From contig NZ_LMGK01000001.1 in the NCBI RefSeq assembly GCF_001427125.1, forward strand, positions 322,108 to 386,107: a stretch of 64,000 bases of DNA. The letters are read 5' to 3'. The translations under genes and the position numbers were made by a program. This stretch comes from Pseudomonas sp. Root562. Its GTDB lineage: Bacteria > Pseudomonadota > Gammaproteobacteria > Pseudomonadales > Pseudomonadaceae. The notes beneath the pieces were generated by a model, which had not been told where the DNA came from, ran no database searches, and saw nothing but the letters and a program-made list of their open reading frames with translations. This document shows positions 46,696 through 53,982 of this stretch, piece by piece. Position 1 is the stretch's first letter. Each line of letters begins with the position of its first letter.

Positions 46696-47819
46696 TGCAA
46701 TTGGCATTTGTCCTGTACAAGTACTTTCCCTTTGGTGGCTTGCAGCGCGATTTCATGCGCATCGCCCTGGAGTGTCAAAAACGCGGGCACCAGATTCGCG
46801 TCTACACGCTGATTTGGGAAGGCGACGTGCCGCCGGGTTTTGAAGTGCTGGTGGCGCCAGTCAAGGCATTCTTCAACCATCGTCGCAACGAAAAGCTCAG
46901 TGAATGGATGGAAGCGGACCTGGCCAAACGCCCGGTTGATCGTCTGATCGGCTTCAACAAGATGCCGGGGCTGGATGTGTATTACGCCGCTGACGGCTGC
47001 TTCGAAGACAAAGCGCAGAACCTGCGTAACTCGCTGTATCGTCGCTGGGGCCGCTATCGCCACTTCGCCGAATATGAGCGCGCGGTGTTTGCCAAAGACG
47101 CGAAGACTGAAGTGTTGATGATCTCCGAAGTCCAGCAGCCGCTGTTCATCAAGCATTACGACACGCCGCTGGAGCGTTTTCATCTGCTGCCGCCAGGCAT
47201 TGCCCAGGATCGCCGCCGCCCAGCCGATGCCGACGAAATTCGCGCCGGCTTCCGGGCCGAATTCAACCTCAAGGACGATGAACTGTTGCTGGTGCAGATT
47301 GGCTCCGGGTTCAAGACCAAGGGGGTTGATCGCAGCCTCAAGGCGTTGGCGGCATTGCCCGCTGATCTGAAGAAACGCACACGGCTGTTTGTAATCGGCC
47401 AGGACGACCCCAAATTGTTCCAGATGCAGAGTGCGACGTTGGGGCTGGGCGACAACGTGACGTTCCTCAAGGGCCGCAGCGATATTCCGCGTTTCCTGTT
47501 GGGGGCCGATCTGTTGATCCATCCGGCCTATAACGAAAACACCGGTACCGTGCTGCTTGAAGCGCTGGTGGCCGGGTTGCCTGTGCTGGTCAGTGCGGTG
47601 TGCGGTTACGCCCATTACATTGCCGAGGCCGATGCTGGCCTGGTGCTGGACGAACCCTTCGAGCAAGCACAGCTGACGCAATACCTGACCGGCATGCTCA
47701 ACGACGCCCAAGCACGGGCGGCCTGGAGCCGCAACGGTTTGGCGTTTGCCGAGACGGCTGATCTCTACAGCATGCCGCAGCACGCGGCCGATGTGATTCT
47801 GGCGGAGCACGCTAAATGA
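46695..47819 (+). CDS. waaG: LPS core glucosyltransferase/glycosyltransferase WaaG
   Basis: This 374-residue GT4 enzyme opens QLAFVLYKYFPFGGLQRDF, the acceptor-side loop of WaaG. Its C-terminal donor-binding motif is HPAYNENTGTVLLEALVAG (EX7E type). In Pseudomonas WaaG adds the first outer-core sugar, galactosamine, to heptose II; the exact sugar here is inferred. It overlaps waaC by one base and waaP by four (ATGA). Confidence 0.95.
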   Translation: MQLAFVLYKYFPFGGLQRDFMRIALECQKRGHQIRVYTLIWEGDVPPGFEVLVAPVKAFFNHRRNEKLSEWMEADLAKRPVDRLIGFNKMPGLDVYYAADGCFEDKAQNLRNSLYRRWGRYRHFAEYERAVFAKDAKTEVLMISEVQQPLFIKHYDTPLERFHLLPPGIAQDRRRPADADEIRAGFRAEFNLKDDELLLVQIGSGFKTKGVDRSLKALAALPADLKKRTRLFVIGQDDPKLFQMQSATLGLGDNVTFLKGRSDIPRFLLGADLLIHPAYNENTGTVLLEALVAGLPVLVSAVCGYAHYIAEADAGLVLDEPFEQAQLTQYLTGMLNDAQARAAWSRNGLAFAETADLYSMPQHAADVILAEHAK

Positions 47820-48622
47820 AGTTGATGCTGGCTGAACCGTTCAAAAGCCTCTGGGCCGGACGCGATCCGTTCGCCGAAGTCGAGGGTTTGCAGGGCGAGG
47901 TGTACCGCGAGCTTGAAGCGCGCCGGACCCTGCGCACTGAAGTGAACGGCAACGGGTTTTTCGTGAAGATCCACCGCGGCATTGGCTGGGGCGAGATCTT
48001 CAAGAACCTGCTCACCGCCAAACTGCCGGTACTCGGTGCAGGCCAGGAGTGGAAGGCGATCCAGCGCTTGCAGGAAGTCGGCGTGCCGACCATGACCGCC
48101 GTCGCTTATGGTGAGAAAGGCAGCAATCCGGCCGACCAGCATTCGTTCATCGTCACTGAAGAGCTGGCGCCGACGGTCAGTCTCGAAGACTTCAGCCTCA
48201 ACTGGATCAAGCAGCCGCCCGAGCCGAAGCTCAAGCGCGCGCTGATCGCCGAAGTGGCACGCATGACCGGGATGATGCACCGCGCCGGGGTCAACCACCG
48301 CGACTGCTACATCTGCCACTTCCTGCTGCACACCGACAAGCCGGTGACGGCCGATGACTTCAAGCTGTCGGTAATCGACCTGCACCGCGCCCAGACGCGT
48401 CCGACGATCACTGCCCGCTGGCGCAACAAGGATCTGGCGGCGCTGTATTTTTCCGCTCTGGATATCGGCCTGACCCGTCGCGACAAGCTGCGGTTCCTCA
48501 AGGGTTATTTCCAGCAACCGCTGCGGCAGATTCTCAGCGAAGAAGCCGGGCTGCTCAGTTGGCTCGAGGGCAAGGCCAACAAACTCTACGACCGCAAACA
48601 GCGATACGGGGATGCGCTCTGA
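47816..48622 (+). CDS. waaP: LPS core heptose(I) kinase WaaP
   Basis: This 268-residue protein has the WaaP kinase fold: the ATP-lysine region FFVKIHRG near residue 50, the catalytic loop NHRDCYICHFLL near 162 with an intact aspartate, and VIDLHRAQ near 185. It phosphorylates heptose I, which in Pseudomonas is needed for outer-membrane integrity and viability. It is the first of five kinase-fold proteins in this cluster. It is joined by ATGA to waaG and by a one-base overlap to the next gene. Confidence 0.96.
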   Translation: MKLMLAEPFKSLWAGRDPFAEVEGLQGEVYRELEARRTLRTEVNGNGFFVKIHRGIGWGEIFKNLLTAKLPVLGAGQEWKAIQRLQEVGVPTMTAVAYGEKGSNPADQHSFIVTEELAPTVSLEDFSLNWIKQPPEPKLKRALIAEVARMTGMMHRAGVNHRDCYICHFLLHTDKPVTADDFKLSVIDLHRAQTRPTITARWRNKDLAALYFSALDIGLTRRDKLRFLKGYFQQPLRQILSEEAGLLSWLEGKANKLYDRKQRYGDAL

Positions 48623-49356
48623 TGGCGGGTTGGACACTGGAGCCTGAATACAGCGATCTGGCAGAGGACTTCGGCAGCCTCGAAGCGGTGTTTGCGCTTC
48701 AAGGCGAGCGATTGACCCGTGATCCGCTGTCGGAAGTCATCCGCGTCCAGCGCAAGGGCGTCAACTATTACGTCAAACGCTACGTGGGCGCAGGCAAGGG
48801 GTTGCGCCGTTATCTGGGCAAGCCTCGGGTGAAAATGGAGTGGCAGAACCTCAAGCGCTTCGCCAAGTGGGGCATTCCCACCGCCGAGGTGGTGGCCTGG
48901 GGGCTGGAGCGTCGCGGCATGGCTTACGATCGCGGGGCGATGATCACCCGCGAACTGCCGCATACCGAAGACCTCTCGGCCCTTGCCGAACGGCACGACC
49001 CCAAGCTCGCGGACCGCGCGTGGGTCGATACCATCAGCCGCCAGCTGGCCAGCTACACCCGGACCATGCACGAGCATTGTTTTACCCACAACGACCTGAA
49101 ATGGCGCAACCTGCTGGTCGACGATCAGCCCCAGCTGTTTCTCATTGACTGTCCCAATGGTGATTTCTGGAGCGGTTTCTGGCTCAAGTACCGCATCACC
49201 AAGGACCTGGCGTGCCTGGACAAGGTCGCCAAATATCAGCTGTCGGCCACTCAGCGTCTGCGCTTTTACCTGCAATACCGGCAACGGGAACGGCTCAATG
49301 CCGCCGATAAAAAACGCATCCGGCACGTGGTGAGATTTTTCGAGGGACGCGAATGA
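48622..49356 (+). CDS. wapP: LPS core kinase-fold protein, WapP-like
   Basis: This 244-residue protein has the RIO/Kdo-kinase-like fold: NYYVKRYVG near residue 48 (ATP lysine), THNDLKWRNLLV near 154 (catalytic aspartate present) and FLIDCPNGDFW near 172 (metal-binding aspartate). All catalytic positions are intact, so it should be active. By order it corresponds to WapP (PA5008), the presumed heptose II kinase in P. aeruginosa. It starts at 48622, overlapping waaP by one base, and ends with an ATGA overlap at 49353. Confidence 0.85.
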   Translation: MAGWTLEPEYSDLAEDFGSLEAVFALQGERLTRDPLSEVIRVQRKGVNYYVKRYVGAGKGLRRYLGKPRVKMEWQNLKRFAKWGIPTAEVVAWGLERRGMAYDRGAMITRELPHTEDLSALAERHDPKLADRAWVDTISRQLASYTRTMHEHCFTHNDLKWRNLLVDDQPQLFLIDCPNGDFWSGFWLKYRITKDLACLDKVAKYQLSATQRLRFYLQYRQRERLNAADKKRIRHVVRFFEGRE

Positions 49357-50105
49357 CTGATTTTCTGGCCGCTGAAGACCGTGCGCTGCTCGAACGCCAT
49401 GGCCTCGGCACGTTCGATGCGCTGTGGTCCCGGCAACTCGAGGCCGTGGACGAACCCAACACCGTTCGCGGTGGCTGGAGCAGCGTGTTTCGACTGGACC
49501 TGGAAGGTCATGGCTTCTATCTCAAGCGCCAGAGCAACTATCAGATGCGCACTTTGCACGCGCCGTTCGGCGAGCCGAGTTTTGCCCGTGAATTTCGCAA
49601 CATCAGCCGTTATGAAAAACTCGGCATTCCGGCGCTGAAAGCGGCGTTTTTCGGCGAGCGCAAAGTTGATGGCGAAGTCCGCGCTGTGCTGCTGACCCGG
49701 GCACTGGACGGCTGGGATGATCTGGATTCGCTGCTGCGCCGCTGGTCAGAGCTCGGCGAGGCGCAACACGTGGCCATTCTGCAAGCCTGCGGCCGTCTGG
49801 CGCAGCGCCTGCATGGCAGGCGTCAGGTGCACGGCTGCTTCTATCCCAAGCACATTTTCCTGCGCGCCAACGGCGACGGCTATCAGGCGCAGTTGATTGA
49901 CCTGGAAAAGACTCGGCCACTGCTGTTCGGCCAACGGGACCGGGTCAAGGATCTGGAGCCATTACTGCGTCGAGCACCCGAGTGGAGCGAAGCGCAGTTG
50001 CGGGTGCTTCTGGCCGCCTATCTGGATCAGGCTCAGGACAGTTCGCTGATCGACAGCTGGCTGACACGTCTGACTGCCCGGCGCAGCCATAAGGGGAAAG
50101 CTTGA
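49353..50105 (+). CDS. wapQ: InaA/WapQ-like kinase-fold protein with altered catalytic loop
   Basis: This 250-residue protein has the ATP lysine (FYLKRQSNY near residue 51), the helix glutamate region (FAREFRNISRYE) and the later LIDLEKTRP metal-binding block. The catalytic loop reads VHGCFYPKHIF near 157, where active relatives have HRD or HGD: the usual aspartate is a cysteine. From memory HGC(L/F)YPKH is the form typical of the InaA family, so it is a family trait rather than a mutation. It corresponds by order to WapQ (PA5007). It may be a non-canonical kinase or a pseudokinase partner. Confidence 0.8.
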   Translation: MTDFLAAEDRALLERHGLGTFDALWSRQLEAVDEPNTVRGGWSSVFRLDLEGHGFYLKRQSNYQMRTLHAPFGEPSFAREFRNISRYEKLGIPALKAAFFGERKVDGEVRAVLLTRALDGWDDLDSLLRRWSELGEAQHVAILQACGRLAQRLHGRRQVHGCFYPKHIFLRANGDGYQAQLIDLEKTRPLLFGQRDRVKDLEPLLRRAPEWSEAQLRVLLAAYLDQAQDSSLIDSWLTRLTARRSHKGKA

Positions 50106-51556
50106 TGCGTTTGTCCGAACTGAAAAGCGCTGGCCGCAGTCCGACGCTGCCGTTGACTCTTTCCCTGGCCGACGCGGCCGGTCCGGCCGATTTGCAGCTA
50201 CTGAGCCTGCTGCGAGTGTTGCCGGGGCAGCGTTACGTGGGCGCCGGTGTCTGGCGTGGCCGCCCGGTGCTGGCCAAATTGCTGGTCGGCAGCAAGGCTG
50301 CACGGCATTTTCAACGGGAACTGGACGGCGTGCGTTTACTCGCTGCCCAAGGCTTGACCACGCCGCTGCTGTTGGCCGACGGCCTTAAGGAAGGCGAGGG
50401 CGGCTGGCTGTTGTTCGAGTTTCTGGAAGGCGCTGAAAGCCTCGGCGATGCGTGGCAGCGAGTTGAAAGCTTGCCCGTGTTGGCCGACGAGCAATCAGCG
50501 GTTTTGGCCGAAGCCTTGGGTGCCATTGGCCAAATGCATCGCAAAGGCCTGTGGCAGGAAGATCTGCATCTGGACAATCTGCTGCGCCAGGGCCGTCGGC
50601 TCTATCTGATCGACGGCGCCGGAATCTGCAGCGAAACGCCTGGCCAGCCGTTGTCGCGGCAAAAGGTCCTGGAAAATCTCGGGGTGTTCTTTGCCCAGTT
50701 GCCACAATCGTTGCAGCCGTTCACCGAAGAGTTGCTGGTCTACTACCTGCTGAGCAATGGCGAACATGCCTTGCCCATGGAAGCGCTACAGAAGCAGATC
50801 GACAAAGTCCGCAACTGGCGCCTCAAGGATTTTCTGAACAAAGTCGGCCGTGAATGCACACTGTTCAGCGTGCAGCGCGGGGCGTTCGGCTTGCGGGCGA
50901 TTCGCCGCGAGGAAGAAGCGGCCATGCTGCCGGTGCTGGAGCGGGCCGATGAGTTGCTTGACCAAGGGCATCTGTACAAGACCGGCGGCGCGGCGAGTGT
51001 CGGCAAAGTCCAGGTCAATGGTCGCACGCTGGTGATCAAGCGCTACAACATCAAGGGCTTTGCGCACTGGCTCAAGCGTTTCTGGCGCCCGAGCCGGGCG
51101 TGGCACTCCTGGCGCGAAGGCAATCGCCTGGCGTTCTTCGGCATCGCCACGCCCAAGCCGCTGGCGCTATTGGAAAAGCGCTTCCTCGGGTTGCGCGGTC
51201 GCGCCTACCTCATCACCGAGCATCTGTCGGGGCCGGACATCATCGAGCGCTTTGCGCCCTATGTGGAAAGTGGTGATGCGCCGGAGTCTGAGCTGGCAGC
51301 GCTGGATCACTTGTTCGCCGAGCTGATTCGCGAGCGCATCAGCCATGGCGACTTCAAGGGCCACAACCTGTTCTGGCAGCAGGATCGCTGGGCACTGATC
51401 GATCTCGACTCGATGTGCCAGCATGGCTCCCTCGCCAGTTTCGTACCGGCGTATGCACGGGATCGCGCGCGGTTCATGCGCAATTGGCCGGACAGTAGCG
51501 CGCTTTATCAAGTCATCGATGGGCGTCTGCCCAAAGACATCGCCAGCGTTTCCTGA
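50105..51556 (+). CDS. Tandem two-domain kinase of the LPS core cluster (PA5006-like)
   Basis: This 483-residue protein contains two kinase-like domains. Domain 1 (about 1-225) has QEDLHLDNLL and YLIDGAGI. Domain 2 (about 265-475) has TLVIKRYNI, then HGDFKGHNLFW and LIDLDSM. Both keep a catalytic-loop aspartate and a metal aspartate. It corresponds by position to PA5006. Candidate substrates are core heptoses or another core protein; none can be read from sequence. The ATG at 50105 overlaps the upstream stop by one base; the TTG at 50102 is in frame and would add one residue. It closes the tightly overlapping run that begins with waaF. Confidence 0.85.
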   Translation: MRLSELKSAGRSPTLPLTLSLADAAGPADLQLLSLLRVLPGQRYVGAGVWRGRPVLAKLLVGSKAARHFQRELDGVRLLAAQGLTTPLLLADGLKEGEGGWLLFEFLEGAESLGDAWQRVESLPVLADEQSAVLAEALGAIGQMHRKGLWQEDLHLDNLLRQGRRLYLIDGAGICSETPGQPLSRQKVLENLGVFFAQLPQSLQPFTEELLVYYLLSNGEHALPMEALQKQIDKVRNWRLKDFLNKVGRECTLFSVQRGAFGLRAIRREEEAAMLPVLERADELLDQGHLYKTGGAASVGKVQVNGRTLVIKRYNIKGFAHWLKRFWRPSRAWHSWREGNRLAFFGIATPKPLALLEKRFLGLRGRAYLITEHLSGPDIIERFAPYVESGDAPESELAALDHLFAELIRERISHGDFKGHNLFWQQDRWALIDLDSMCQHGSLASFVPAYARDRARFMRNWPDSSALYQVIDGRLPKDIASVS

Positions 51557-52224: not shown

Positions 52225-53982
52225 GTGGCATTGACGATTCTTGGCCTGTCCGGCGCCCTTAGCCATGATCCTTCCGCAGCCCTGTACATCGACGGCAAGC
52301 TGGTCGCGGCGGCTGAAGAAGAGCGCTTCGTGCGCGATAAACATGCAAAGAACCGCATGCCTTATGAATCGGCGAAATTCTGCCTGGAACAGGCCGGTAT
52401 CAAACCTTCCGACGTTGATGTGGTGGCCATTCCGTTCGCCCCGATCAGCCTGTTCGGCAAGGCTCGCTGGCACTACGCCAAGCGTTACTGGTACGCGCCG
52501 GACCGCGCCCTCGATGCAATCCTGATGGGCAACCGTCGCTACAAGCGCTATCGCAACAAGATCGTCTGGTGCCTCGAGCAACTGGGTTTCGATCCGAAAA
52601 AAATCAAGATCGAGCCGGTCGAACACCATCTGGCTCACGCCTCCAGTGCCTACCACTGCTCCGGTTTCAAAGAAAAAACCGCGATTCTCGGGATCGACGG
52701 CAAGGGTGAGTACGCCACGACGTTCTTCGGTTACGGCGAAAACGGCAAGATCCACAAGATCAAGGAATTCTTCGATCCTGACTCCCTCGGCGGCCTGTAC
52801 GGCGCAATCACCGAGTTCCTCGGTTTCGAGATGCTCGACGGCGAGTTCAAGGTCATGGGCATGGCGCCGTATGGCGACGCCAGCAAGTACGACTTTTCGC
52901 GCCTGGCCTCTTTCGAAAACGGCGAGCTGGTGATCAACACCGATTACGCCAACGTCATCGGCCTGCGTCGCTATAAAGAGAAGGGCAAGGGTTTCTACTT
53001 CTCGCCGAAGCTGATCGAGTGGCTGGGTCCGAAGCGCGAAGGCGACATCGCCGACGAGCCATACATCCACTACGCCGCCAGCATGCAAGCGCTGTTCGAG
53101 AAGCTGGCGTTGCAGATGATCGACCACTACCTGGGCGACGTACTCAAGGAAACCGGCAAGCTGGCGTTCGCTGGCGGCTGTGCCTTGAACGTCAAGCTGA
53201 ACCAGAAAATCATCGCCCGCGACGACATCAAAGAGCTGTTCGTCCAGCCTGCGTCCGGCGATGCCGGTACTGCCGTCGGCGCTGCGGCTTATGTGTCCCA
53301 CGCCCGCGGCGTTCCGGTCGAGAAGATGGAACACGTCTACCTTGGCCCGTCTTACAGCAATGAAGATGTGATCGCCGCCTGCGCCCGCCATGAGAACAAA
53401 CCTGCGTGGCGCAAGCTCGACAACATGCCGGAGCAGATCGCCAAAATCATGGTCGACGGCAACCCGGTGGCCTGGTTCCAGGGCCGCATGGAGTTTGGTC
53501 CGCGTGCACTGGGCGGTCGTTCGATCATTGGTTGCCCGAGCGTGCCGGGCGTGGCCGATCGCATCAACCACCAGATCAAGTTCCGCGAGCGCTGGAGGCC
53601 TTTCTGCCCGTCGATGCTCGACACCGTGGCGCCACAGATGATCAAGATCGATCACCCGGCGCCGTTCATGACCTTCACCTTTGAAGTGGCTGAAGAGTGG
53701 AAAACCCGCGTGCCGGAAGTGGTCCACGAAGACGGCACTTCCCGTGCCCAGGTGCTCAAGCGCGAATACAACCCGCGCTACTACGACATGATGAAAGCGC
53801 TGGAAGTACTCACCGGCAACGGCGTGTCGCTCAACACTTCGCTCAACCGTCGCGGTGAGCCGATGATCTGCTCGCCGACGGACGCCTTGAACATGTTCTT
53901 CGGTTCCGATCTACAGTATCTGATCATGGAAGACATCCTGGTGGTCAAAGAGGGCGCGAACGCATATGACACGCTCGGCTGA
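52225..53982 (+). CDS. wapO: Carbamoyltransferase of the NodU/CmcH family (WapO-like)
   Basis: This 585-residue protein has the YrdC-like/Kae1-like carbamoyltransferase layout: LGLSGALSHDPSAAL at the start, the metal-binding HHLAHASSAYHCSGF near residue 133, and the C-terminal block EFGPRALGGRSI near 424. It makes a carbamoyl adenylate from carbamoyl phosphate and ATP and transfers it to an acceptor hydroxyl. By position it corresponds to WapO (PA5005), proposed to carbamoylate heptose II of the core. The start is a GTG at 52225, with GAGG 11 bases upstream. Its end overlaps the next gene by 17 bases. Confidence 0.9.
   Translation: MALTILGLSGALSHDPSAALYIDGKLVAAAEEERFVRDKHAKNRMPYESAKFCLEQAGIKPSDVDVVAIPFAPISLFGKARWHYAKRYWYAPDRALDAILMGNRRYKRYRNKIVWCLEQLGFDPKKIKIEPVEHHLAHASSAYHCSGFKEKTAILGIDGKGEYATTFFGYGENGKIHKIKEFFDPDSLGGLYGAITEFLGFEMLDGEFKVMGMAPYGDASKYDFSRLASFENGELVINTDYANVIGLRRYKEKGKGFYFSPKLIEWLGPKREGDIADEPYIHYAASMQALFEKLALQMIDHYLGDVLKETGKLAFAGGCALNVKLNQKIIARDDIKELFVQPASGDAGTAVGAAAYVSHARGVPVEKMEHVYLGPSYSNEDVIAACARHENKPAWRKLDNMPEQIAKIMVDGNPVAWFQGRMEFGPRALGGRSIIGCPSVPGVADRINHQIKFRERWRPFCPSMLDTVAPQMIKIDHPAPFMTFTFEVAEEWKTRVPEVVHEDGTSRAQVLKREYNPRYYDMMKALEVLTGNGVSLNTSLNRRGEPMICSPTDALNMFFGSDLQYLIMEDILVVKEGANAYDTLG

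Follow-up and report, generated by a model that had tools for sequence, protein, structure and literature searches.

WapQ of a Pseudomonas lipopolysaccharide core operon belongs to a clade of Kdo-family kinase relatives that lacks the catalytic aspartate

The genes wapQ, inaA and warB are annotated as lipopolysaccharide (LPS) or heptose kinases, and WapQ is counted among three heptose kinases in schemes of core phosphorylation (PMC8005017, PMC6147952). The wapQ gene of Pseudomonas sp. Root562 encodes a cysteine where kinases of this family carry their catalytic aspartate, which raises the question of whether this is a peculiarity of one protein or of its relatives as well, and what such a protein may do in an operon of LPS kinases.

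The wapQ gene, its neighbours and its fold

The window, that is, the whole stretch of 64,000 nucleotides analysed, contains wapQ among the following genes.

47816-48622, + strand: waaP, heptose kinase with HRD (NCBIfam NF011703, 456.5 bits, cut-off 170)
48622-49356, + strand: wapP, Kdo-family kinase with HND (start set by the TGATG overlap)
49353-50105, + strand: wapQ orthologue, 250 aa, Kdo/WaaP-family kinase relative without the catalytic aspartate (open reading frame, Pfam, NCBIfam, family search)
50105-51556, + strand: PA5006-like two-domain kinase with QED...N and HGD...N (open reading frame, Pfam)
52225-53982: carbamoyltransferase gene of the same LPS-core operon (open reading frame, Pfam)

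The order of the LPS-core operon is waaF, waaC, wapG, waaP, wapP, wapQ, the PA5006-like gene and the carbamoyltransferase gene. The names were given in part by comparison with PMC8005017, in which PA5007/PSPTO_4998 is wapQ. The PA5006-like kinase has the sequence WQEDLHLDN in its first domain, with glutamine in place of the motif histidine and the aspartate kept.

The sequence VHGCFYPKHIFL is present in the 250-residue product of the wapQ reading frame. Kdo (PF06293) is the sole Pfam family found in it (188.8 bits, gathering cut-off 21.3), while the NCBIfam models for the InaA equivalog (NF007383, 80.2 bits) and the RfaP/WaaP heptose(I) kinase (NF011703, 35.6 bits) score below their cut-offs of 235 and 170. 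The nearest named relatives are Pseudomonas proteins, with a best identity of 96%. Four places in the genome match WapQ, namely wapQ itself, wapP, waaP and a paralogue at C2:222543 (L002, 35%). A weak PADLOC match to PD-T4-6 (E 5.6e-4, 17.1 bits) was taken to reflect the common kinase fold; a phmmer search of the PDB sequences returned PknA (1.1e-4) and WaaP 6DFL (0.002), and a scan of viral contigs gave two pattern matches and no relative.

An AlphaFold2 model of WapQ, built from a 34-row alignment, has a mean pLDDT of 91.8 and a pTM of 0.87. With this model WaaP 6DFL is the top Foldseek match (E 4.7e-14, query TM 0.68), and VIA-align also superposes WaaP (Z 21.6, 229 aligned residues, rmsd 4.2 Å), followed by Bud32 (Z 17.3); no SelO chain is among the 50 Foldseek and VIA matches listed. 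WapQ resembles WaaP/RfaP in Pfam family, whole-chain fold and operon, and in the ATP lysine, glutamate, tyrosine, histidine and metal aspartate (K58, E80, Y164, H167 and D183 of WapQ), but differs in having cysteine for the HRD aspartate, DLEK for DLHR and lysine at the position of WaaP C167.

The catalytic position in WapQ, InaA and WarB

Relatives were collected by whole-protein searches of 59 genomes of the family and, with the InaA model, of 299 genomes of the phylum. Searches with a profile (A1) covered a further 398 genomes from the phylum, 369 from the class and 60 from one enterobacterial family; E. coli K-12 inaA was added. After 41 rows (duplicates, short pieces and second-domain hits) had been dropped, 126 WapQ/InaA-type proteins were left for the column counts. 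The active-site features of WapQ are as follows, with their conservation among the 126.

49524-49526, + strand: K58, ATP lysine (WaaP K51), kept in 126/126
49590-49592, + strand: E80, glutamate pairing with K58 (WaaP E78), kept in 126/126
49830-49853, + strand: catalytic loop H160-G-C-F-Y-P-K-H167, from the alignment
49836-49838, + strand: C162, in place of the HRD aspartate, from the alignment
49899-49910, + strand: D183-L-E-K186, metal aspartate D183 (WaaP D188; 124/126) with the E185 (123/126) and K186 (118/126) of the clade

The loops of WapQ (HGCFYPKH), WaaP (HRDCYICH) and the WapP of the same operon (HNDLKWRN) align without a gap, and C162 falls in the column of WaaP D163 with no gap from the motif histidine to the metal-binding histidine or asparagine. 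As judged from this alignment, C162 occupies the position of the catalytic aspartate. Among the 126 proteins, which were found in part with a profile that itself has mostly cysteine in this column and were grouped four ways by best HMM, so that an aspartate-bearing member could be filed as WaaP or WapP, the column holds Cys in 108, Ser in 6, Ala in 4, Asn in 3, Arg in 2, and Gly, His and Lys in one each, with Asp or Glu in none. The initial annotation, which had read a cysteine for the catalytic aspartate of WapQ beside a retained ATP lysine and LID metal aspartate, was right on both counts: C162 stands opposite aspartate in all 49 WaaP and all 34 WapP proteins (83/83 together; one of the 34, L245, is really PA5006-like), and K58 and D183 are present. 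Another acid at the catalytic position, which together with normal kinase activity it had named as speaking against it, stands there in none of the aligned clade proteins. A chance or single-strain substitution and a reading error are ruled out by the same count.

Other loop residues are kept as well: H160 in 124 of the 126 proteins, Y164 in 121, and H167 in 123. The column of K166, six residues after the motif histidine, holds Lys in 115, Arg in 8, and Asn, Tyr and Gln in one each, with no acid. The cysteine column is less strictly conserved than the ATP and metal residues. At the 108 loci with a cysteine codon TGC was found 67 times and TGT 41 times; 80 of the 109 loci in the codon count came from a scan pattern permitting only C, N or G, and cysteine retention at those loci is no evidence.

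Residue 33 (window 49449-49451), which lies ahead of the glycine loop, is Asp or Glu in 125 of the 126 clade members. WaaP and WapP lack this acid, as do almost all of the KdkA rows, and it may be a candidate for a migrated acid that could in principle reach the active site. Two InaA-type proteins (L116 and L118, in G028 and G011) have lost further residues, the metal aspartate being replaced by glycine (LLGLAKS) and the histidine by asparagine (HGRLYPKN), in full-length open reading frames. At L293:3768-5401 (G714) wapQ occurs in tandem, and the catalytic loop of the second copy (HGCLHDYH) has drifted further.

A quick tree of 103 rows, built with the HRD-aspartate column excluded, requires one change between presence and absence of the aspartate (SH-aLRT 99) and 13 switches between cysteine and other letters. 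In a careful tree of 70 rows, from which half of the cysteine rows and two long rows were omitted (the latter including the aspartate-less L266, with Lys), the aspartate-less WapQ, InaA and WarB proteins form one clade with support of 100/99 that is recovered in 100% of 200 bootstrap trees. The clade is separate from WaaP, WapP and KdkA, and no aspartate-bearing row lies inside it on trees that hold 7 WaaP and 3-4 WapP rows after thinning. The lack of the aspartate is therefore a trait of the whole WapQ/InaA/WarB clade and not an oddity of one protein. Kinases generally keep their catalytic aspartate, and on this basis the aspartate of WaaP, WapP and KdkA was taken as the older state. It seems that the residue was lost once, in the ancestor of WapQ, InaA and WarB, on a tree whose root was assumed in this way and not inferred.

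The prevalence of cysteine (108 of 126), together with the control of E. coli inaA by MarA/SoxS/Rob (PMC9301823), might suggest redox sensing or cysteine-based catalysis at C162. The 13 changes on the tree, which include Ala, Gly, Arg and Lys, and the laxer conservation of this column than of the ATP and metal residues make such a role very improbable. A universal cysteine nucleophile is unlikely because the cysteine varies more than the neighbouring residues, and as an obligate, family-wide feature it is ruled out by the 18 of 126 proteins with another letter (S, A, N, G, R, H or K).

Coupling, loss and replacement of wapQ, and its paralogues

The wapQ gene overlaps its neighbours on both sides.

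49353-49356, + strand: ATGA, in which the wapP stop overlaps the wapQ start, in the window and in 108/109 loci
50103-50107, + strand: TGATG, in which the wapQ stop overlaps the next start, in the window and in 78 of 98 parsed loci (11 of the 109 were not parsed)

The overlapping wapQ start is in frame at all 108 loci (ATG 103, GTG 5), and at the exception, L196, no wapP gene was recognised. The genes for WaaP, WapQ, the PA5006-like kinase and the carbamoyltransferase also stand together in this order in distant gammaproteobacteria (3/3 loci read: L292, L293 and L294), with WapQ doubled in L293 and WapP unrecognised in two. Overlapping genes are a means of co-production of their products and not proof of contact between them.

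The median dN/dS against the window is 0.11 for wapQ (80 loci), 0.079 for PA5006 (79), 0.078 for wapP (78) and 0.053 for waaP (79). The wapQ gene is under purifying selection, and its decay is ruled out by this value and by the intact reading frame. A WapQ match (rows with E below 1e-50) was found in 46 of the 59 family genomes. Nine of the 13 genomes without a match were examined (G016, G025, G032 and G051 were left out), and in seven of the nine (G044, G017, G033, G009, G010, G055 and G056) wapQ is cleanly absent: waaP, wapP and the PA5006 gene adjoin, with nothing between wapP and PA5006. G053 is cut off inside wapP. In the ninth, G048 (L286:5486-6184, G048:C65), an InaA-type gene with the loop HSCCYGKH lies in the wapQ place between wapP and PA5006, and its product scores higher with the InaA model (326 bits) than with WapQ (183 bits). 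The wapQ gene is thus dispensable and exchangeable in its operon, and the swap of an InaA-type gene into its place suggests that WapQ and InaA perform the same kind of job.

InaA (E. coli b2237, loop HGCCYVRH) and WarB belong to one clade with WapQ but differ from it in gene context, lying between yfaE and glpQ in E. coli and beside warA in Pseudomonas. The InaA-type paralogue in the genome of the window (HSCLYIKH) comes after a methyltransferase gene, and a warA-like gene adjoins inaA/warB in 10 of 11 loci read (L002 and L037 being one place). G042 has two InaA-type genes (L036 and L050), with a warA-like neighbour only at L036. WarA and WarB are said to form a complex, in a paper of 2017. 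The pair of methyltransferase gene and InaA-type gene has been named warA/warB, and WarB is described as a putative kinase; Pseudomonas sp. WCS365 loses protection and competitiveness in the rhizosphere when warB, and not warA, is deleted (PMC8805031). In P. syringae a wapQ deletion alters Congo red binding, deletions affecting EPS reduce leaf adhesion (PMC8982409), and deletion of E. coli inaA lowers resistance to p-coumarate (PMC9301823).

A pseudokinase partner and its alternatives

A pseudokinase lacks at least one of the catalytic residues of active kinases, as WapQ does. In WaaP, each of the mutations D163A, K51A, H161A, D188N, Y165A and H168A gave no growth (PMC6147952). Since WapQ has all of these residues except the aspartate, it should hold ATP-Mg and phosphorylate a hydroxyl poorly. 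The coupling to active kinases, the tolerated loss of the gene and the drift of the cysteine make a pseudokinase partner the most likely role, and our leading, though still tentative, explanation is that WapQ is a nucleotide-binding pseudokinase and a partner of LPS-modifying enzymes; the nucleotide binding, the lack of phosphotransfer and the partner role are the parts of it that we infer. In mechanistic terms, WapQ has kept the whole ATP and metal site, while the aspartate, which orients the hydroxyl of the acceptor, was presumably lost in the ancestor of WapQ, InaA and WarB; it is predicted from the residues present to bind ATP-Mg; the overlapping genes would coordinate its production with that of WaaP, WapP and the PA5006 kinase; and it would assist the LPS-modifying enzymes as a regulator or scaffold that is optional, relating to them as the paralogue WarB may relate to the methyltransferase WarA. 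The further losses in L116 and L118 and the phenotypes of warB and wapQ deletions also agree with this reading. Against a pseudokinase, the conservation of Y164, K166, H167, E185 and K186 is stricter than a mere scaffold requires. The listing of DC3000 wapQ and PA5007 as heptose kinases (PMC8005017), the description of WarB as a putative kinase (PMC8805031) and the clade-specific acid at residue 33 likewise speak against it. Some chemistry may remain in WapQ since the WaaP counterparts Y165, H168 and R191 are essential (PMC6147952), and the strict Y-x-K-H...DLEK constellation may leave catalysis possible.

The same residues bear on the alternative that WapQ is an ordinary LPS sugar kinase, which phosphorylates a heptose hydroxyl slowly with the aid of Y164, H167, E185 or an acid located elsewhere. 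The complete ATP and metal site, the substrate-side Y164 and H167 and the WaaP-like fold along the whole chain agree with this, as does the matching of the first three Pseudomonas core phosphates to three 'heptose kinase' genes (PMC8005017). However, D163A ends WaaP function in vivo (PMC6147952), an acid has been regained in none of the 126 proteins even though the three Asn rows are one base change away, and the rest of the operon is retained in genomes without wapQ. We consider an ordinary kinase unlikely, while giving it some weight.

A different acceptor might explain why the aspartate could be lost. WapQ could phosphorylate an already phosphorylated heptose to give di- and triphosphates, an anionic acceptor without need of a base, for which the aspartate would be dispensable or harmful. 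The loss of the acid goes together with clade-wide basic residues, namely K166 (K/R in 123/126; C in WaaP), K186 (R in WaaP), R188 (R 106, K 17; Q in WaaP) and R206 (F in WaaP), and the core of DC3000 carries di- and triphosphates (PMC8005017). Yet the core of P. syringae pv. phaseolicola has only three phosphates with a cluster reported as conserved in the species (PMC8005017), the aspartate-keeping WapP (R at the K166 position in 34/34) and KdkA (R206 in 11/12) share basic residues, E185 adds an acid, and InaA is found in bacteria with other cores; we regard this acceptor as improbable. For the clade at large it is equally doubtful that WapQ, InaA and WarB are a family of base-free phosphotransferases which, having lost the aspartate and acquired basic residues, add a phosphate to one already present on the LPS core, or to some other ready anion there. 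If they are, such a family would produce the di- and triphosphates by which divalent cations are bound in the outer membrane of Pseudomonas, and InaA and WarB would be its stress-induced versions. KdkA, a Kdo kinase of the same Pfam family, resembles WapQ in the acid two residues after the metal aspartate (Asp in 12/12 KdkA, E185 in WapQ) but keeps HxD, which is not countable since the KdkA rows were picked by a motif demanding the aspartate (12 of 15 loci).

SelO provides a precedent for a kinase fold without the HRD aspartate (HGVMNTDN in E. coli SelO), and Kdo is among its nearest Pfam families (PMC3281104), so that WapQ might similarly transfer AMP to a protein or sugar. The general base proposed for SelO, D252 of the P. 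syringae protein (PMC8017715), lies six residues after the motif histidine, where the WapQ/InaA proteins have K or R in 123/126. WapQ also ends its catalytic loop in His where SelO has Asn, and it has no match to SelO in Pfam. We give AMP transfer little credence. The SelO analogy drawn in the initial annotation is weakened by the absence of an acid at that base position from all 126 proteins and by the Kdo-only Pfam assignment; its broader proposal of a nucleotide-binding pseudokinase, or a kinase with another chemistry, fits everything seen, except that the trait belongs to a clade and not to this protein alone.

In the literature searched, 'pseudokinase' did not occur jointly with 'inaA' or 'wapQ', and papers beyond it may have noted the lack of the aspartate. 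A 2025 review of bacterial Ser/Thr pseudokinases does not mention Kdo, WaaP, InaA or lipopolysaccharide, and the KINtaro paper does not mention Kdo or WaaP. Should the catalytic aspartate be missing throughout the clade, the assignment of its members as heptose kinases is unsafe: either another kinase makes the phosphate credited to WapQ, or there is an aspartate-free kinase that works by some other chemistry. The species that lack wapQ alone in an otherwise retained operon provide a natural experiment.
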